Positions 1,045 to 36,245 of a DNA stretch of 36,245 bases are shown in pieces. Each line of letters opens with the position of its first letter. The stretch's first letter is position 1. The position numbers and the translations under genes were made by a program. The notes beneath the pieces were generated by a model. That model ran no database searches and had not been told where the DNA came from. It saw nothing but the letters and a program-made list of their open reading frames with translations. The stretch spans positions 1-36,245 of IMG/VR virus record IMGVR_UViG_3300022693_002348; one strand, 5' to 3'. The DNA comes from a virus.

Positions 1045-1072
1045 TTGAACATTCTGCGGGTAAAGCTATATT
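1045..1072 (+). promoter_or_regulatory. Putative rightward early promoter
   Basis: TTGAAC at 1045-1050 and TATATT at 1067-1072 are separated by 16 bp, a good sigma-70 pair. They lie 43 bp after the last dyad and 44 bp before the first rightward ATG at 1116. The downstream leader carries GCTAGACAGAAAGG at 1097-1110, a motif shared with three other early leaders. The promoter would drive the operon from 1116 onward. Confidence 0.6.
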
Positions 1073-1349: not shown

Positions 1350-1982
1350 ATGAACGGGGAAGGGCCACCTAAACAGGACGGGCAATTCGCCCGCATATCA
1401 TACGACCTGTTGCTTTCAGATGCATTCACCACCCTGCCGCCGATGGCGCTGAAGCTGTTTATGGCTGTGGTCAGCAGGCACATGCGGGAAGGATACACAT
1501 CTGCCAACGGCTGGATCAGCATGAGCACGGCAGAAGCCTGTGAGGCATGCGGCATCAAGAAAAAGGCCACCGTTCTGGATGCATTCGCGCTGCTGGTCAG
1601 GCGTGGCCTGCTGGTGCGCACCTATAAGGGCAGGCGCATCAATGCGGTGCAGCGTATCGCATCCAAGTGGGAAGTGACCGATTGGCCCAGCCGTGATGCA
1701 GCTGGTGACTGGCAGGAAGCGACGAAGGAATACAGGAACTGGAAGCCGGCCAAGGATGATCCGGTGCAGGGCATCGATGCCAGTGCTGATGCGATCGATG
1801 TGGAAAAGTTGGCAAGCTATGCGCCGAAACAGCGCCCCAGCCGGGCCAAGATGGGCCTGAAGGTGCTGGGCAAGGAAGGCAAGGATTTCACCCCCGATGA
1901 TCGGCCGTGGGAAGAGATCGAACAGGAAATGGGCCGTGAACGTGTGAAGGAGCCGGATTATGGCGATGATATCCCTTTCTGA
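1350..1982 (+). CDS. Winged-helix replication initiator-like protein with SSB-type acidic tip
   Basis: This 210-residue protein has an N-terminal domain (about 12-112) resembling phage and plasmid winged-helix initiators: helix 31-44, NGWISMSTAEACEACGIKKK as the helix-turn-helix (54-73), a following helix ending LLVRRGLLVR (81-90), and a basic wing leading to SKWEVTDWPS. Residues 115-200 are a polar linker. The last residues are D203-Y-G-D-D-I-P-F210, almost the C-terminal tip of bacterial single-strand-binding protein (DDDIPF), which host replication and repair proteins bind. No SSB or OB-fold is visible in the protein. It follows the Cro-like gene after 3 bases and lies 350 bp from the iteron-like dyads, supporting a role in origin recognition or replisome recruitment. 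It could instead be a transcription factor. Confidence 0.65.
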   Translation: MNGEGPPKQDGQFARISYDLLLSDAFTTLPPMALKLFMAVVSRHMREGYTSANGWISMSTAEACEACGIKKKATVLDAFALLVRRGLLVRTYKGRRINAVQRIASKWEVTDWPSRDAAGDWQEATKEYRNWKPAKDDPVQGIDASADAIDVEKLASYAPKQRPSRAKMGLKVLGKEGKDFTPDDRPWEEIEQEMGRERVKEPDYGDDIPF

Positions 1983-2594: not shown

Positions 2595-3085
2595 TGAAAC
2601 GCTTCAACGCCATTGATCTGGTCATCAAGGGCAGGCCCTACGCCCAGAGCAGGCCGCACATGAACACCGAAACCGGCGTGGTCTATGCCAATGCCAGCGC
2701 CAATCTGAAGCGGTGGCGTTCCAGGGTGGCAGCGGTGGCCCGTGGTAGGCGCCTCGAGCCCGGCCCGGTGGCCTGCCAGATCATATTCGGCATGCCCACG
2801 AATGACCGCAGCCGGTGGTTCAAGCTGCACAGCATCGTTCCCGATTTCGATAATCTGGGGAAGGCGGTGTGCGATGAACTGCAGGGCAAGTCCCACCCGC
2901 TGGATGACGACGGCCAGATCGCATCCGGCGATATCCTGAAGATCTGGTCGCCCGTGGGATTCGCCCGCGTGATGATGCAGGCCACCGATGACGTGGCCGA
3001 GGTCATCGAATTCAAGCGCCGCGCCATACAGGTGCTGGAAGAACTGCTGGCCACGAACGCCAGCCAATATAAGGAAAGGAAATGA
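2594..3085 (+). CDS. rusA: RusA-family Holliday junction resolvase
   Basis: The protein has 163 residues. RusA enzymes are small homodimers that cut four-way DNA junctions; in phages they process replication or recombination intermediates before packaging. The family's metal-site acids are visible: P83-DFDN-L88-G-K-A-V-C-D94-E-L, then L103-DDDGQI, with K116 after it. The N-terminal strand with KGRPYAQSRPHMN also fits the family. The start at 2594 overlaps the upstream stop and is preferred to an in-frame ATG at 2525, which lies inside the previous gene. Its length is somewhat above the 120 residues of E. coli RusA because of extra C-terminal helices. The next gene overlaps by ATGA. Confidence 0.88.
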   Translation: MKRFNAIDLVIKGRPYAQSRPHMNTETGVVYANASANLKRWRSRVAAVARGRRLEPGPVACQIIFGMPTNDRSRWFKLHSIVPDFDNLGKAVCDELQGKSHPLDDDGQIASGDILKIWSPVGFARVMMQATDDVAEVIEFKRRAIQVLEELLATNASQYKERK

Positions 3086-3588
3086 GCATGCAGAAGGATA
3101 ACCGCCCCTGGGCCGTGCTGAACTATGCCGGCATGGCCACCCGTGCCATCGAACAGGAAAAGGCCCGTAAGGCTGAAAGGCCTACTCTGGCCGATATGAA
3201 ATCCCAGGCACGCCGGGAAGGCCTGCAGGGTGCATCGGTTGGCGCGCTGCGCAGGATCCACCTGGGTGACGTGATGGCCGAAAAGGTGAAGGCCGAACTG
3301 GATGCCACCCGCACCGATGGCAACCCGGTCGACTACATCATCGATGACGAGGGCCACCGCTACGATCGCAATGAGTATGCGGCCGAAAAGGGATCCAGCC
3401 GCGCCGATGGTGCGCTGGTGACCATGGGCATCGACAAGATGTATCGCACGATGCACCGCGGTGCCCTGATCGATGCCATGGCCGATATGGCAGAGGAACA
3501 GGAAGCCCAGGAAGATCGGGCGGCCGTGAAGATCGATGCAGCAAAGCAGCGCCGGGAAAAGCGGGCTGCGAAAAGGAAAGGGAAGTGA
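3082..3588 (+). CDS. Unknown basic protein
   Basis: The protein has 168 residues from ATG 3082, overlapping the RusA stop by four bases. It is largely helical and charged. A middle segment (DYIIDDEGHRYDRNEY, near 104-119) is acidic and the C-terminus (from 150) is strongly basic, ending KQRREKRAAKRKGK, which suggests nucleic-acid contact. No domain is recognised. Its position between resolvase and other early genes points to DNA metabolism, but this is only context. Confidence 0.65.
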   Translation: MSMQKDNRPWAVLNYAGMATRAIEQEKARKAERPTLADMKSQARREGLQGASVGALRRIHLGDVMAEKVKAELDATRTDGNPVDYIIDDEGHRYDRNEYAAEKGSSRADGALVTMGIDKMYRTMHRGALIDAMADMAEEQEAQEDRAAVKIDAAKQRREKRAAKRKGK

Positions 3589-3590
3589 CC

Positions 3591-3905
3591 ATGTTCAAGC
3601 GTATCCGCGATGCCGTCACCGGGCGGTTCACCACTGCAGCTGAAGCGAAAAGGCGGCCGAACGAAACCGTGGCCGAGCGGGGTATGCCGCAGTCCCGCGT
3701 GCCGGTTGGCAAGCATGAGCCCATCAGGATGCCGTTCGACATCTACGTGCATAAGGATCACATGAATCCGGACGTCCACGTTCCCGTGGTCAATGTTCTG
3801 CAGCTGAACCTGACTGACAAGGAAATCGGCAGGCTGATGAACGTCGCGTGTTATGCCGATGCGATCGTGATCTGTGGAGCATATTTCGTGAAGGATAAGC
3901 CCTGA
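3591..3905 (+). CDS. Unknown small early protein
   Basis: The protein has 104 residues from ATG 3591; a GTG at 3585 overlapping the previous stop is an alternative, but GGAAG is better spaced to 3591. The N-terminus is basic (FKRIRDAVTGRFTTAAEAKR), similar to short motifs seen at the start of phage proteins that bind DNA. The C-terminal half has alternating strands and ends ADAIVICGAYFVKDKP. No family is recognised. The stop overlaps the next ATG (TGATG). Confidence 0.55.
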   Translation: MFKRIRDAVTGRFTTAAEAKRRPNETVAERGMPQSRVPVGKHEPIRMPFDIYVHKDHMNPDVHVPVVNVLQLNLTDKEIGRLMNVACYADAIVICGAYFVKDKP

Positions 3906-4384
3906 TGAACATCTGGCAGAAGCACATGATCACCGGCCTGCAATTCGCCCGCGTGCGGGCCGTGGAGGCCGATTTCATCAAGGACCTGGTGAAGGCCAAG
4001 GATCGGGCGGAACGTGGGCTGGGCGGCTCATTGTCGCCCGGCCAGGATGCCTACCTGATCAAGCTGGCGTATCGATATCGCGGCCAGATCAGCGCAGGCA
4101 TCGCGCCGCCCAGCGAAACGATCGCTGCCAAGGATCACCGGCGTATCACCAGGGCGATGTGTGAGCGCATCGAAAAGGAACGCCTCGAGCGGGAAGCCCA
4201 GGAAGAAAAGGAACGGAAGGAAGCGCAGAAGGCGGAAATCACCGGTGCTGATGTGTTCCAGGCCCTGAAGTCCGTTGGCCCTGATGGTTTCTTCAGTTCC
4301 GCCGATGGCATGACCGGCGCGGTGATAGACGGGAAATTCGATCTGGAACGGGTTGCCCGTATCCTCATGGGAAAGGAAAGCTGA
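3905..4384 (+). CDS. Unknown helical protein with coiled-coil segment
   Basis: The protein has 159 residues. Two-thirds is helical, with a long charged stretch near 90-112 (ERIEKERLEREAQEEKERKE) typical of a coiled coil or single alpha helix. The C-terminal part, GADVFQALKSVGPDGFFSSA and VARILMG, looks like a small separate helical unit. The first half contains SPGQDAYLIKLAYRYRGQI, a pattern seen in several uncharacterised phage early proteins. Coupled by TGATG to the upstream gene. Function unknown. Confidence 0.6.
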   Translation: MNIWQKHMITGLQFARVRAVEADFIKDLVKAKDRAERGLGGSLSPGQDAYLIKLAYRYRGQISAGIAPPSETIAAKDHRRITRAMCERIEKERLEREAQEEKERKEAQKAEITGADVFQALKSVGPDGFFSSADGMTGAVIDGKFDLERVARILMGKES

Positions 4385-4650: not shown

Positions 4651-5244
4651 ATGATCGGCACGCATACATGGGAATTCGATGCGGCACGGTTCACCTGCGA
4701 TGGCGCCGTGATCACATCGGAATTCCATGGCGGGCCCACTCACGTGGATGATTTCGGCCCGTTCATCGCGAATGAATGGCAGTGGTGGCTGGCGCATCAA
4801 TACGGATACGGGAACGATTATCTGCGGTATTTCCAGGAGCATGATTTCGTGCATCACTGGCTTGCGCAGGAACTGGGGCACGGGTTCAGCAGATCGCTGC
4901 GCTACGGAATGACGCTGGATGAAGCCGCAAAGGTAGAGAAGGCCAATCCCGATGATCCGCGCCTGAAGTTTTCCGGATTTCCGCAGCACATCAGGTATGA
5001 AGAAAACATGGTGCACTGGTGCCAGGTGGCGCTGCGAACGGATCCCAGCTGGGAAGCGCACGTCGAGCCGCATATCTGCAGCGGTGATTTCCTGCTGGCC
5101 TATGAGGGCAGGCCCGATGGCAAGGATATCCTGGAAAGGCTGAAGGCCGATCTGACCGAATTCGCGGGCGGATGGGACCTGTATCCGAACGTGAAAGCGC
5201 AGCTGCTGTTCACGCGAAAAATGAAAGGCGAATGGAATGAGTAA
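4651..5244 (+). CDS. Unknown protein with EHDFVHH motif
   Basis: The protein has 197 residues from ATG 4651, directly after the HNH stop. An in-frame ATG at 4528 lies inside the HNH gene and is not used. The protein is rich in Trp and His. Residues 63-69, EHDFVHH, in a helix context (FQEHDFVHHWLAQELG) could bind a metal as in HD-type hydrolases, but the second half of such a site is not clear. The gene ends inside the methyltransferase start (8-base overlap), so the two are probably co-translated. No family is recognised with confidence. Confidence 0.6.
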   Translation: MIGTHTWEFDAARFTCDGAVITSEFHGGPTHVDDFGPFIANEWQWWLAHQYGYGNDYLRYFQEHDFVHHWLAQELGHGFSRSLRYGMTLDEAAKVEKANPDDPRLKFSGFPQHIRYEENMVHWCQVALRTDPSWEAHVEPHICSGDFLLAYEGRPDGKDILERLKADLTEFAGGWDLYPNVKAQLLFTRKMKGEWNE

Positions 5245-5998
5245 GGCAATGACGATACTGGAAAGGCCGGCGGTGCAGCGCATCGAGATCATCGGCAACG
5301 CAATCCTGATCCTGGGTGACTGCCAGGAAATCGTGCTGGCCGGTGATGAACTGGACGGCGAATTCGACTCGATCATCACAGATCCGCCCTATGGCATCGG
5401 CGCTGAAGGCGGTGTCGGGCGGTATGGCCGCATGAACCACGGCGGGAAGGATTCCGGCAAGTCCTGGGATAACGTGGCACCGGCCGCGATGATCGACCGG
5501 CTGCTGGCCATGAAGCTGCCCACGGTCATCTGGGGCGGTCACTACTTCACGCTGCCGCCCTGCCGTGGGCTCATGATCTGGGATAAGGGCGCCACCTTCA
5601 AGGGCCGCGATTTCGCGGAATGCGAGGTCGCCTGGTGTTCCATCGATCGGCCGGCGCGCATCCTGAAGTATGATCCCAGCGCCAAGCAGGACTACCGCAA
5701 GGGCAATAAGCACCACCCCACCATGAAGCCGCTGGCGGTCATGGACTGGTCGATCCTGGCGCTGCCGGCATCGATCACCACCGTGCTGGATCCGTTCATG
5801 GGATCTGGATCCACTGGCATCGCGGCCACCAGGGCAGGAAAGGCGTTCATCGGGATTGAGAAGGACCCGGAATACTTCGAGCGGGCCGTGGCACGGTTCC
5901 AGGCTGATGTAGATGCCCCCAGGCTGTTCCAGATGGACCCGGCGATCGATCCGGGTGCGCTGCCCCAGATGCTCATTCCGGGAATGGAGGAAGCCTGA
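5237..5998 (+). CDS. Beta-class DNA methyltransferase (N6-adenine or N4-cytosine)
   Basis: The protein has 253 residues. It transfers a methyl group from S-adenosylmethionine to an exocyclic amino group in DNA. The catalytic motif DPPY is at 49-52, H160-PTMKP165 follows, and the AdoMet-binding motif DPFMGSGSTG is at 185-194 with IEKD at 207-210. This order, catalytic motif before the AdoMet motif, defines the beta class that includes CcrM and M.RsrI. There is no partner restriction gene nearby, so it is an orphan enzyme, often used to hide phage DNA from host nucleases or to affect transcription. The target sequence cannot be read from the protein. It overlaps the upstream gene by 8 bases and the downstream gene by 1. 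Confidence 0.9.
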   Translation: MSKAMTILERPAVQRIEIIGNAILILGDCQEIVLAGDELDGEFDSIITDPPYGIGAEGGVGRYGRMNHGGKDSGKSWDNVAPAAMIDRLLAMKLPTVIWGGHYFTLPPCRGLMIWDKGATFKGRDFAECEVAWCSIDRPARILKYDPSAKQDYRKGNKHHPTMKPLAVMDWSILALPASITTVLDPFMGSGSTGIAATRAGKAFIGIEKDPEYFERAVARFQADVDAPRLFQMDPAIDPGALPQMLIPGMEEA

Positions 5999-6351
5999 TG
6001 CGCCTGGTCATCATCGAGTCGCCCTATGCTGGCGATGTGGAACGCAATACGGCCTATGCCCGGGCGGCCATGAAGGATTGCCTGGAACGCGGGGAGGCGC
6101 CCCTGGCATCGCATCTGCTCTATACGCAGGTGCTGGATGACGATGTGCCGGCGGAACGTGCCATGGGCATTGAAGCCGGGCTCGCATGGGGATCGCTGGC
6201 ATGGGTCAGCGTGATCTACGTGGACCTCGGCATCACCAGCGGAATGAAATACGGAATTGAAAGGGCCAAGCGTGAAGGAAGAACAGTCGAATACCGATGC
6301 CTGGGCGGCGAATGGGAAGCCGGTGGCAGTCATCAATTGGCACAGGCCTGA
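5998..6351 (+). CDS. DUF7768-like protein, nucleoside deoxyribosyltransferase-type fold
   Basis: The protein has 117 residues. It begins with a strand and the motif ESPYAGD (7-13), followed by ERNTAYARAAM, ASHLLYTQVL, RAMGIEAGLAW and DLGITSGMKYGIERA. This set matches a phage protein family that I recall as DUF7768, thought to have the fold of nucleoside 2-deoxyribosyltransferases; its reaction is not known. The gene starts with the last base of the methyltransferase stop. An enzyme acting on nucleotides or modified bases would fit beside a DNA methyltransferase, but that is inference. Confidence 0.7.
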   Translation: MRLVIIESPYAGDVERNTAYARAAMKDCLERGEAPLASHLLYTQVLDDDVPAERAMGIEAGLAWGSLAWVSVIYVDLGITSGMKYGIERAKREGRTVEYRCLGGEWEAGGSHQLAQA

Positions 6352-10403: not shown

Positions 10404-11129
10404 ATGGATAAGATGAACGACTCGACCGATGGCCGTGAAGCCATGTGCAACTATGCGGCCCAGATCGCCAGTGAGGCATACGGCATCGATTTCGGCGATC
10501 TGAAGCGGGTTGCCCTGCGCAGTTTCGACGATCACTGGGAAAGGCAGCAGGCCTATGAGGAAACCGGATGCTGCACCACCGATGGCCCGCCGGCAAAGAT
10601 GGAAAACCACCTGAAGGAAAAGATGCGCGAGCACGCATGGCATGAGGGCAACCGCCTGAAGGTCCTGCTGGAAGGCTGGCACATGGCCCTGGGTGCGCTG
10701 GAGCGTGTTTATGTGGGCATGGAAGGCTTCAACCCGTTCTCGCCGGCTCATCCGCTTTTCGGGTGCCCGGTGCTGCTGGTGGGTGAAGACGATGGTCCCG
10801 ATGACGATGGAGTCGTGGGTGAAGTCACATTCATGACCCTGCCGCAGATCCTGCGCACTCTGGGCGCGATGATGAACCGTGAACGGGATCACATGGCGCT
10901 GGATCCCGATGTGCTGCCCGATGCGATCGTGGAAATGCTGGGACTGGGTGGTGCCAGCCGGCGTGAAGCATTCGAATCGATCTGGACCTGGGCAATGGCT
11001 GAAGCTGAAGATGGCTTTATGACCTGCCGCGGCAAGCTGGAAAAGCTTGCCAATGCATTCGAAAACGATCTGGAATTTGACGAGGCTTTCATCCTGCGGT
11101 CGAATAACAGCGGGCCGGTCCTGCACTGA
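10404..11129 (+). CDS. Unknown 241-residue early protein
   Basis: The start at ATG 10404 is preferred because AAAGGC lies 8 bases upstream; ATG 10389 and 10398 are in-frame alternatives. The protein is acidic and helical, with a segment VGEDDGPDDDGVVGE near residues 130-145 and paired Cys (CC) in the first third. No catalytic motif or membrane segment is seen. It overlaps the following ATG by one base. It is the largest of four consecutive unknown genes (10404-12743). Confidence 0.6.
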   Translation: MDKMNDSTDGREAMCNYAAQIASEAYGIDFGDLKRVALRSFDDHWERQQAYEETGCCTTDGPPAKMENHLKEKMREHAWHEGNRLKVLLEGWHMALGALERVYVGMEGFNPFSPAHPLFGCPVLLVGEDDGPDDDGVVGEVTFMTLPQILRTLGAMMNRERDHMALDPDVLPDAIVEMLGLGGASRREAFESIWTWAMAEAEDGFMTCRGKLEKLANAFENDLEFDEAFILRSNNSGPVLH

Positions 11130-11572
11130 TGACCGAAAAGGCGGATATCCAGCCGCCTATGGCATGGCGCCGGGTGGGCGATCACCTGGCGCCGGCCTGT
11201 GAGCGCAGCGCGGCATTCGTGCGGCGCCTGAAGGATGGCGATCTAGCCAAGGGCGATTTCACGAAATCCCGCAGCCTGGGTCACCATCGGAAATACTGGA
11301 AGCTGCTGGCGATCGTGGTAGACAATTCGGATGCCTTCGACTCGCCGGAACAGGTCCACCTGTTCATCAAGGCAACGCTGGGCAGGGGCACGTGGTGGAA
11401 ACCGGAAAAGGCCACCAGGGCCATATTCATTCCCGATAGCACCAGCTTCGGCAAGATGGATCAGGAAGCCTTCCAGCGCTTCTACAATGAGGCGGTGCAA
11501 GTCATAATCAGGCACATGCTGCCGCATCTGGATGCGGATCAGCTGGATGCCATAGTGGAGAATTTCGCGTGA
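11129..11572 (+). CDS. DUF1367-like phage protein
   Basis: The protein has 147 residues. The segment KGDFTKSRSLGHHRKYWKLL (about 42-61) and the later SFGKMDQEAFQRFYNEAV resemble the conserved pieces of DUF1367, a lambdoid early family (NinX-region type) of unknown role: a basic 'R-x-H-R-K-aromatic' motif followed by an 'F-x-K-M-D-x-x-x-F' motif. It is coupled to both neighbours (TGATG before, GTGA after). The family link is from motif memory. Confidence 0.5.
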   Translation: MTEKADIQPPMAWRRVGDHLAPACERSAAFVRRLKDGDLAKGDFTKSRSLGHHRKYWKLLAIVVDNSDAFDSPEQVHLFIKATLGRGTWWKPEKATRAIFIPDSTSFGKMDQEAFQRFYNEAVQVIIRHMLPHLDADQLDAIVENFA

Positions 11573-33888: not shown

Positions 33889-34116
33889 TTAGCGGCCGCG
33901 AACGACGAGGCGGACGGGCCGCAGCGCGCCCCTGGTCAGCCCTTCCAGGCGATCGGCGCGCTGGTCAGCCTGTTCAGCTGCATCCAGCAGATCCTTCACC
34001 GACTCGCGCCGGATCATCTTGCCGTTCCACATGTATTGGATGACGCCGCCGCCCTTGGCGGCCTGGGCGCGCAGCGTGCGGGCCAGGTTACGGTATTCGG
34101 CAGCGCTCGGCCCCAT
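33889..34116 (-). CDS. gpW-like head-tail connector protein
   Basis: The protein has 75 residues from ATG 34116, coupled to the terminase stop (TGATG). It has helix ARTLRAQAAKGG, strand-turn-strand GVIQYMWNGKMIRRESV, then a helix to LEGLTRGALRPVRLVVRGR. Length and pattern match gpW, which stabilises packaged DNA at the portal. Its position between terminase and portal is identical to lambda W. Confidence 0.8.
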   Translation of the reverse strand: MGPSAAEYRNLARTLRAQAAKGGGVIQYMWNGKMIRRESVKDLLDAAEQADQRADRLEGLTRGALRPVRLVVRGR

Positions 34117-36245
34117 CAGAAGTCTCCTTTTCGCATTCCGGGCCTTGTAGCACCATATCGGCCAGCATTTCCAGCGCGATGTTGCCCAGGCCTTGCGCCG
34201 GGATCCTCACCGGCCCCGACAGGGGCGAATTTCCACTTGCGCGGCGGTGTGGGATCCTGATCGACAGGCTGGGGATGCGGTTTGCGCGATGGTGAAAGGG
34301 AAGGGGCGTCCAGCTGATCCAGAAGCGCCATCACTCGGGGGTCGGTGGCCGCGATCCACTGGTCGGGCACATGCTCAATGTGCATCACGTTGTGGATCTT
34401 CATCATCTTGCGGGCACCGCCGTTGCAGTAGTTCAGCAAGTCCAGCGCTTCCTGGCGCACGGTGGTATCCACGTCCGTCCATTTCGTGCGGGCCTGGCCG
34501 GTGCGCCGGTCATAGACCAGCCCTTCCTGGAAATTCGTGGCCTGCTCAAAATATCCATCGGTGTAGCCGGTGTCGATCAGCACCTCGCCGGTCTGGCGAT
34601 TGAAGGAATCGGCAGGCCAGTGCATCATGCCCGGCTTGGCCGTGGTTTCCGGCCGCTCATCGCCCTTGTAGCGCAGCTTCATGCGCATCAGCAGCACGCG
34701 CTTGGCCTCATCGGTGCCGATCACATCGTGCCTGGTCTTGTGCTTCATGCGGCTGGGATCATAGGGCTGGAACAGATCGCCACGGGAATCGCCGCGCAGC
34801 GCGTAGACGCCGCTGCCCTTGTTTGGCGTCACATAGGCCATCGCAGCCTTCGCCAGATCGCCGCCTTGGCCGATATCGATACCGCACAGGCTCACCGGAT
34901 ACATGCGCCCATCGACGCCCACATAGGGCCGGATCCGCACGCGGTGCAACGCCATCCAGGCTTCCTTCTGGGTTGGCGGAATGCTGATCACACCGAATGC
35001 GATGCCCCAGGACTCTTCGCCAGCACCATAGCCGCGAATTTCCCACTCCAGGCGGTCGCCCTGCACGTCAACGGCCATCACCAGGAACTTCACCGGGCGC
35101 GGCACCTGCACGCCAGGCCCCCAGATCGATTGATAGTCCAGCCGCCGGCCTTGCAGATCCTTCGCCAGATCGCCGGCCGATCCCATCGGTTCAAAATTCC
35201 GGGCCAGGGTCTGGTTGTAGAACTGCATCAGATCCGCGATGCTGCCCTGGGCATCGATCCACAGCTTCACCAGATCGGCAAGCGCGACGCGGGTGGAATA
35301 CAGGGCGCCGCAGCGATAGGACTTGTGCGATTGATCGGAAAGCGAGCCGCATTCCGGGCACTGGTGCGATCGGCCAATGGGATCTTCAGGCCCCCAGCTG
35401 CCAGTCTGCGCGGGATCCCAATCCACGCCGCAACAGGTGTGGATCGCCATGCTGCGCCATTCGACTTCCTGAAGCATGACGAATCGCTGCGCATCGGAAT
35501 GCGCATGGGCGCACTTGGGGCACCGGTATTCGTGCCCTTCCGCGATGAGCTCACCCTTGCCGTTCCGCTCTATGTGCACGTTTTCCCATTCCAGGGTGTG
35601 ATCGTGCTGGCAGGCCGGATTCTGGCATTTCACGAAAGGAATGGACTGGTCGCCCTTCATGTAGGCCAGCGTGGTCAGGCAGGTCTTGGCGCTGCCCTTG
35701 GGCGTGGAAGCGCGAACGAACTTGGCATTGGGGTATTCGCGCTGGCGCTGGAAAAGCGCCATTTCGATCGATCCGGCGGCATTGTGGCCGCATTCCGCGT
35801 GCTCATCAATGAACACATACATGGCCGGGCTGGCCTTCACGCGGCTGTAGGATTTCGCCGATACGAACCGCAGCCAGCCATCGGGGAAGACCCAGCGGGT
35901 GTTCCGCGACTTGGCCTTGCGCCGGCCCTTCATGGGCTTCAGCTTCTCTTCCGGATCCGGCATGAGTTTTTCGCGCAGGCAATCGGTGGCATTCCACCCA
36001 GGCACGAAATCCTCGTCGCGCTTCGTTTCCGCCGTTTCATCTTCCGGATAGACCATGGTGATCGGGCCGGGCGCCCAATCGATGGCCCAGCCCACCATGT
36101 TCCAGATCGACCGCGACTTGCCCACCTGGGCACCGATCAGCAGGGTGATCTGGCGCACGCGGGGATCGCTGAAGGCACGCTGCGGCGCACCCATCACCGG
36201 GCCGTTTTCTTCGCGATACTTGCCAGGACGCGGCTGGCCCTCACC
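34116..36245 (-). CDS. terL: Terminase large subunit, GpA family (5' end cut)
   Basis: 709 residues are visible; the frame continues past 36245, so the N-terminus is missing. The ATPase and nuclease of the packaging motor: Walker A-like G38-AQVGKS44 (numbering of the visible part), VFIDEHAECG as the Walker B region, four zinc-binding Cys clusters (CQNPACQHDH, YRCPKCAHAH, CCGVDW, CPECGSLS), and the nuclease segments FLVMAVDVQGDRLEWEIRGY and LCGIDIGQGGDLAKAA with the acidic residues of the GpA family. A polar Pro/Lys tail ends the protein. Followed directly by the gpW-like gene. Confidence 0.93.
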   Translation of the reverse strand, partial: GEGQPRPGKYREENGPVMGAPQRAFSDPRVRQITLLIGAQVGKSRSIWNMVGWAIDWAPGPITMVYPEDETAETKRDEDFVPGWNATDCLREKLMPDPEEKLKPMKGRRKAKSRNTRWVFPDGWLRFVSAKSYSRVKASPAMYVFIDEHAECGHNAAGSIEMALFQRQREYPNAKFVRASTPKGSAKTCLTTLAYMKGDQSIPFVKCQNPACQHDHTLEWENVHIERNGKGELIAEGHEYRCPKCAHAHSDAQRFVMLQEVEWRSMAIHTCCGVDWDPAQTGSWGPEDPIGRSHQCPECGSLSDQSHKSYRCGALYSTRVALADLVKLWIDAQGSIADLMQFYNQTLARNFEPMGSAGDLAKDLQGRRLDYQSIWGPGVQVPRPVKFLVMAVDVQGDRLEWEIRGYGAGEESWGIAFGVISIPPTQKEAWMALHRVRIRPYVGVDGRMYPVSLCGIDIGQGGDLAKAAMAYVTPNKGSGVYALRGDSRGDLFQPYDPSRMKHKTRHDVIGTDEAKRVLLMRMKLRYKGDERPETTAKPGMMHWPADSFNRQTGEVLIDTGYTDGYFEQATNFQEGLVYDRRTGQARTKWTDVDTTVRQEALDLLNYCNGGARKMMKIHNVMHIEHVPDQWIAATDPRVMALLDQLDAPSLSPSRKPHPQPVDQDPTPPRKWKFAPVGAGEDPGARPGQHRAGNAGRYGATRPGMRKGDF

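Follow-up and report, generated by a model that had tools for sequence, protein, structure and literature searches.

The protein encoded at positions 1350-1982 (+) of the window, by which we mean the whole analysed stretch of 36,245 nucleotides, is probably an O/RepA_N-like replication initiator; it has 210 aa and ends in an SSB-type tip, YGDDIPF. This tip is real and lies beyond what chance would provide; tips of this type are a common tag of phage proteins, here placed on an initiator-like body. We consider it an even prospect (probability of roughly 0.5) that the dyad repeats at 815-1002 are bound by the protein, whose tip imitates the SSB C-terminus and docks host partners of SSB, with the host machinery assembling at the phage origin.

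The tip-bearing protein and its fold

The frame of 210 codons terminated in GRERVKEPDYGDDIPF and a stop codon at 1980-1982, and the last residues of the protein were KEPDYGDDIPF. Upon re-reading of this region, the reading frame, coordinates and C-terminus YGDDIPF given in a first-pass annotation were all exact. The tip itself comprised residues 204-210 (1959-1979, +). It was preceded by a low-confidence linker of residues 111-203 (1680-1958, +), where pLDDT was mostly below 50 and only one short helix (residues 187-196) was modelled; on the basis of this model, the linker is probably disordered. Residues 13-110 (1386-1679, +) formed a predicted winged-helix DNA-binding domain, which was the sole part common to the homologues. 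We also observed that the decapeptide at the end of the initiator contained four acidic residues and no basic residue, and that the extreme C-terminus had the form of an SSB-Ct, namely acidic residues followed by I/L-P-F, on a tail with pLDDT below 50.

The identification of the protein as an SSB was rejected, as it has no OB fold. In particular, neither Pfam nor PHROGs provided an SSB or OB-fold family match for the 210-aa protein, and a winged helix was found instead in the AF2 model, which was consistent with the earlier statement that an OB fold is lacking.

Using the window's own amino-acid composition, the probability that a given gene ends in DDIPF by chance was estimated at about 5e-7, which amounts to about 1.6e-5 for the 33 likely genes together, and that of the looser pattern [DE][DE][ILV]PF was 1.8e-4. 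A PF end was absent from every other reading frame of the window longer than 50 aa. Additionally, the start of the next gene was found to overlap the tip, a point that was absent from the first-pass annotation: the Shine-Dalgarno sequence AAGGAG of that gene lies inside the initiator gene at 1947-1952 (+), and its ATG at 1960 overlaps the tip codons.

To place the body of the protein, we compared profile and fold matches. The N-terminal ~100 residues showed a weak match to the O-like family phrog_18020 (E 7e-4), and the Pfam family Phage_rep_O (PF04492) scored 13.9 bits (E 0.084), which is below its cutoff of 28.7. Among the homologues, O-like and initiator PHROGs predominated; phrog_678 was matched in four of seven members, and phrog_270 (5.7e-5) and phrog_391 were matched as well. 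The AF2 model calculated from three sequences had a mean pLDDT of 44.5, with values of about 55-70 in the winged-helix part, and the single-sequence model had a mean pLDDT of 37. The best PDB folds for the low-confidence three-sequence model were RepA_N N-terminal domains, with 4pql showing a Z-score of 8.9 and an rmsd of 2.9 over 91 aligned residues and 4pt7 showing a Z-score of 8.6. Foldseek gave an E-value of 1.1e-3 for this RepA_N match, which was obtained from a low-confidence model and without a significant sequence match. The top viral fold match of the AF2 model was the lambda GpO N-terminal protein, and many generic winged helices and regulators aligned to the model at a Z-score of about 7. 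A profile search of PDB sequences using the A2 profile revealed only weak matches, which were generic winged-helix regulators. The AF2 model is too poor for detail, but the profile ranking and the fold ranking, which are independent, point the same way. As modelled, the first ~100 residues form a winged helix that is nearest to phage O-type proteins by profile and to RepA_N N-terminal domains by fold.

Dyad repeats, homologues and genomic setting

Three 22-bp dyads of the form CTGGTTACC-N4-GGTCACCAG, which are putative iterons, were located at 915-1002 (915-936, 948-969 and 981-1002) with an exact spacing of 33 bp, and a degenerate outlying 22-bp copy, CCGGTAACCGTAGGGTAACCAG, was located at 815-836 with one mismatch to CTGGTNACC-N4-GGTNACCAG. 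The latter pattern had four matches in the window compared with 0.1 expected, and four were reached in 0 of 100 shuffles; the iteron-like dyads described in the first-pass annotation are thus real. Their arms of 9 bp surround GTAT or GCTC centres and recur with a 33-bp period, as in semi-palindromic direct repeats, and the centre is not a pure A-tract. The dyads lie upstream of the initiator gene with one ORF intervening, which encodes a 76-aa protein (1116-1346, +) matching phrog_3626 (unknown function; E 1.1e-4), and a repeat scan found no array inside the initiator gene of the window. We infer that the initiator binds these dyads. A weak promoter-like site, TTGAAC-N16-TATATT, was present at 1045-1072 (+) ahead of the rightward operon, and such sites were no more frequent than in shuffles. 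The DNA fold of the stretch past the dyads was unremarkable. The gene layout about the dyad region was divergent, with late genes running leftward (132-893, - and 34116-36197, -) and early genes running rightward. The sign of the GC skew flipped at around 1 kb and again at around 13 kb, which fits either an origin or gene orientation.

The gene following the initiator (1960-2223, +) encodes a second winged-helix protein of 87 aa, which matched HTH_36 (3.8e-7) and the O-like initiator family phrog_678 (2.8e-7) and is possibly a paralogue, a regulator or a second initiator subunit. Elsewhere in the window, a nucleoside 2-deoxyribosyltransferase-like protein (5998-6351; phrog_355, 7.7e-24) was found beside an N6/N4 DNA methyltransferase (5237-5998). 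Bases 1-84 of the contig were an exact inverted copy of 2216-2299. The most likely cause is an artefact of assembly or amplification in which the contig end folded back; the alternative would be an inverted repeat on either side of the origin segment. Judging from the relatives of the lysozyme and the initiator, the host would lie among the Alphaproteobacteria.

The record is a linear fragment in which a small terminase and an integrase were not recognised; the contig looks incomplete, and claims on genes absent from the phage are therefore weak. PHROGs and Pfam recognised no helicase, primase or SSB in the early region, and no P-type loader was recognised among the ORFs scanned. The earlier statement that no SSB is encoded in the window held for the early ORFs scanned with these two resources, but several of these ORFs have no assignment and the contig looks incomplete, so that the absence of SSB from the whole phage does not follow. 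For the same reason, the proposal that the missing helicase and primase genes need the tip as their explanation was weakened; moreover, such an absence is ordinary in lambda-type phages, which use the helicase and primase of the host.

Single-protein searches of viral contigs, genome contigs, phages and plasmids revealed no close homologues of the initiator, a terminase search of viral contigs revealed no sister phages, and a scan based on an alignment of P0001 with two relatives gave 599 pattern matches, none of which was confirmed. A 215-aa relative, which was met by chance among the loci gathered for the tip survey, was found on a prophage-like contig with an integrase (L095); it showed 34% identity over 129 residues by BLASTP and an E-value of 5e-8 by phmmer. 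From L095, we reached four more relatives, namely those of L277 (viral), L278 (a Methylobacterium plasmid), L279 (Sinorhizobium pSymB) and L280 (Azospirillum, with a broken frame). The 16-kb Pseudomonas element vB_Pae_U1 (L047) contributed one more relative, its 'replication protein O'. The homologue set therefore comprised five intact frames and one broken frame, with about 25-34% identity in the winged helix only.

The tip was present in none of these homologues, which ended in LTRMKGAA (L095), SRMRGAA (L277), APKALAG (L278), DQRAAA (L279) and TVPMEG (vB_Pae_U1), and their tails were unrelated to that of the initiator in both length and sequence. The first-pass annotation had named a conserved DDIPF end with a variable linker among homologues as support for a borrowed tip and homologues without it as evidence against. 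The DDIPF end was kept in none of those found, which are distant relatives with unrelated tails and not close orthologues; their tipless ends count against the proposal for the family and are silent on the phage's own lineage. Because the homologues lack the tip, it appears from these sequences to be lineage-specific.

The homologous loci were found to carry repeats of their own. In vB_Pae_U1, four copies of GGTACAG-AAA-CTGTACC, with an AAA centre, were present at 3875-4002 (0.01 expected), at the end of the gene at 3459-3926. L277 contained five copies of GGGGCG-N4-CGCCCC at 3394-3599 within its gene (3001-3648); this count, with two mismatches allowed, was matched in 3 of 200 shuffles, so the argument is one of position and not of count. 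The same motif was found in L095, and L278 contained GGTCCA-N5-TGGAC dyads without mismatches at 3462 and 3555, past its gene (2869-3441). A clear repeat array was not seen in L279 and L280. At the four homologous loci, the dyad clusters were thus located in the 3' part of the gene or just past its end, although L277 and L095 are 88% identical and the four loci amount to about three independent cases. In iteron initiators of the lambda O type and of the RepA_N type, the repeats are located within the rep gene and meet at an A/T centre. Since the repeats of the homologous loci show this iteron-initiator anatomy, we conclude that the winged-helix domain family is very likely an initiator family. 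The description of the 210-aa protein as initiator-like was accordingly upheld by the O-like PHROG, the RepA_N N-terminal folds and the palindromic iterons near the homologues.

Repeat arrays in or after the 3' end of the gene were a shared feature of the winged-helix proteins of L276/L095, L277, L278 and L047, which belong to alphaproteobacterial prophages and plasmids and, as the O protein, to vB_Pae_U1. These proteins probably form an unrecognised family of iteron initiators, and winged-helix proteins of alphaproteobacterial prophages and plasmids that are annotated as hypothetical would thereby gain a function, probably as iteron-binding initiators. A primase gene comes directly after that of the tipless vB_Pae_U1 protein, in contrast to the window, where a primase was not recognised; this difference is suggestive only.

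SSB-type tips on other viral proteins

The sequence YGDDIPF followed by a stop was found in at least 45 stretches among 2.9 million viral contigs, in contrast to none for the scrambled YGDDPIF-stop with the same codons. Most of these matches were Neisseria-type (prophage-type, phage-encoded) SSBs ending in the identical heptapeptide. A scan of genome contigs for DYGDDIPF-stop revealed none. Two wider tip scans provided at least about 190 non-redundant proteins, and the non-SSB carriers among the matches listed included Sak4 (E 2e-50), RecT, Erf, Cas4-domain and PD-DExK exonucleases, AEP-TOTE primases and SF2 helicases. The tip was also observed, among the matches listed, on several ssDNA-binding families, including DUF669-type and Gp2.5-like proteins. 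Viral loci with DDIPF on a Sak4, RecT, Erf, exonuclease, primase or helicase were L005, L019/L024, L055, L068/L078, L075, L083, L089, L100, L136, L137, L208 and L267.

We rejected the possibility that the tip is peculiar to the 210-aa protein among non-SSBs, as Sak4, RecT, Erf and others end in DDIPF. The earlier notion of a borrowed SSB tip thus stood insofar as the tip is genuinely of the SSB type and far from chance, but the tip is shared with many non-SSB phage proteins. Its occurrence on non-SSB phage DNA-metabolism proteins is apparently a broad and undescribed form of tagging, and the survey suggests that SSB-type tips serve as a general tag on such proteins. No initiator family was found among the tip-bearing proteins classified (the best 25 of 50 families in the first set), and phmmer searches with three winged-helix queries revealed no match ending in the tip among the matches listed. 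The placement of the tip on an initiator stays unusual. No SSB-Ct mimicry by phage initiators was found in the open-access papers searched, which does not prove its absence.

Proposed mechanism and comparison with known systems

In the preferred reading, the winged-helix N-terminal domain would bind the dyads at 815-1002 and mark or melt the origin, and the flexible charged linker of about 90 residues would present YGDDIPF in imitation of the SSB C-terminus. Host proteins that have a pocket for the SSB-Ct would dock on the tip, the most plausible being DnaG, PriA and Pol III chi of the primosome/replisome set, and the host machinery would gather at the phage origin with no need for a helicase or primase of the phage. 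Dyad binding, tip binding and the identity of the partners are the steps that we infer. An interaction of chi with the SSB-Ct is known. DnaG is reported to bind the SSB-Ct (PMC5872125), and SSB-Ct interactions are likewise reported for RecO, RecG and PriA. The C-terminal domain of the pSK41 RepA_N protein binds DnaG (PMC5703833), and recruitment of DnaG by the tip would parallel this activity. Against the preferred reading, the tip is found in no homologue, the dyads lie upstream and not inside the gene, the similarity to named families is weak, and the AF2 model is of low confidence.

In a bolder and rather doubtful form of the proposal, replisome assembly would depend mainly or solely on the tip, by which the origin-bound initiator would capture host primase or PriA directly and bypass DnaA, a loader and a phage primase, and DDIPF would be a portable docking tag across origin-binding, annealing, nuclease, primase and helicase domains. 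The authors of the PLE RepA study noted that it is largely unknown how the host replisome is recruited by single-protein phage and plasmid initiators that lack a loader or primase. If the proposal were true, the recruiting device would be a five-residue and easily mutated SSB mimic, and the question would be directly testable with defined partners.

The tip could also dock a recombination partner, either the phage-encoded NinB/lambda Orf homologue (11129-11572, +; phrog_319, E 1.5e-20), whose family consists of recombination mediators, or host RecO, RecQ or RecJ, and thereby link the firing of the origin with replication that depends on recombination. Recombination proteins (Sak4, RecT, Erf and exonucleases) account for most of the other non-SSB tip carriers among the matches listed, but the tip carrier here is initiator-like and not a recombinase. 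Orf-family proteins bind SSB and YbcN requires the SSB C-terminus, although lambda Orf binds SSB with or without the tip (PMC4118853), and we consider a recombination partner unlikely. It would be similarly improbable that the protein is a transcription regulator of two divergent operons, with the dyads as operators and the tip anchoring it to SSB-partner complexes or having no role in replication. The dyads do lie between divergent genes with the promoter-like site nearby, winged-helix regulators align to the AF2 model at a Z-score of about 7, and regulators are the only, albeit weak, PDB sequence matches of the A2 profile. However, initiators rather than regulators rank first by both fold and profile, dyad arrays in or after the coding region, as at the homologous loci, are typical of origins and not of operators, and an SSB tip at the end of a repressor would be unusual.

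A functionless coincidence, in which the next gene dictates the last codons through its overlapping Shine-Dalgarno sequence and start, would account for the AAGGAG and ATG within the last 12 initiator codons and for the relatives without the tip. This explanation is quite improbable: a DDIPF end by chance is rare, as estimated above, SSB tips with the identical heptapeptide exist, and the occurrence of the tip in phage genomes is highly non-random. Additionally, the overlap constrains some of the bases, as it fixes the Shine-Dalgarno sequence and, after it, the ATG at 1960 but nothing more, without dictating IPF-stop in the initiator frame. The tip might instead be a decoy that competes with host SSB for its partners and disturbs host replication or repair rather than recruiting at the origin. 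SSB-Ct peptides can compete for SSB partners, and the tip is natural-like and placed on a flexible tail in the AF2 model, but an origin-bound initiator would be expected to be low in copy and a poor competitor against abundant SSB tetramers, and a decoy is very unlikely.

Upon comparison with known systems, the protein was found to be similar to bacterial and phage SSBs in carrying DDIPF on the acidic end of a flexible tail, and the exact YGDDIPF occurs on phage-encoded SSBs; in contrast to SSB, it has a winged helix and no OB fold. Sak4, RecT, Erf, Cas4-domain and PD-DExK exonucleases, AEP-TOTE primases and SF2 helicases likewise carry DDIPF on an unrelated DNA-metabolism domain, but these are enzymes or annealases and not origin-binding proteins. 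DdrB of Deinococcus also differs from the initiator, as it is an annealing protein whose motif is dispensable for radioresistance. The similarity to lambda O-type proteins (Phage_rep_O, phrog_678/18020) includes a winged-helix N domain by weak profile, the early-operon position, four dyad repeats nearby and the lack of a recognised phage helicase. Unlike those proteins, the initiator scores below the Pfam cutoff, has no recognised P-type loader, lacks the O C-domain and bears an SSB tip, and whereas lambda O-type origins have dyads inside the initiator gene, the dyads of the window lie upstream at 815-1002. Compared with RepA_N initiators (Rep of pSK41 and pTZ2162, and PLE RepA), the low-complexity tail with its SSB-type tip replaces the DnaD-like C-terminal domain, a Pfam RepA_N match is lacking, and the dyads are upstream. 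The two are nevertheless similar in their semi-palindromic iteron dyads and may share the winged-helix N-terminal domain, as suggested by PDB matches of a low-confidence model to 4pql, 4pt7 and 5kbj. In RepA_N initiators, a host-specific C-terminal part recruits the host machinery, as does the DnaG-binding C-terminal domain of pSK41, and the SSB-type tip alone suggests that the C-terminal part of the present protein may act likewise.
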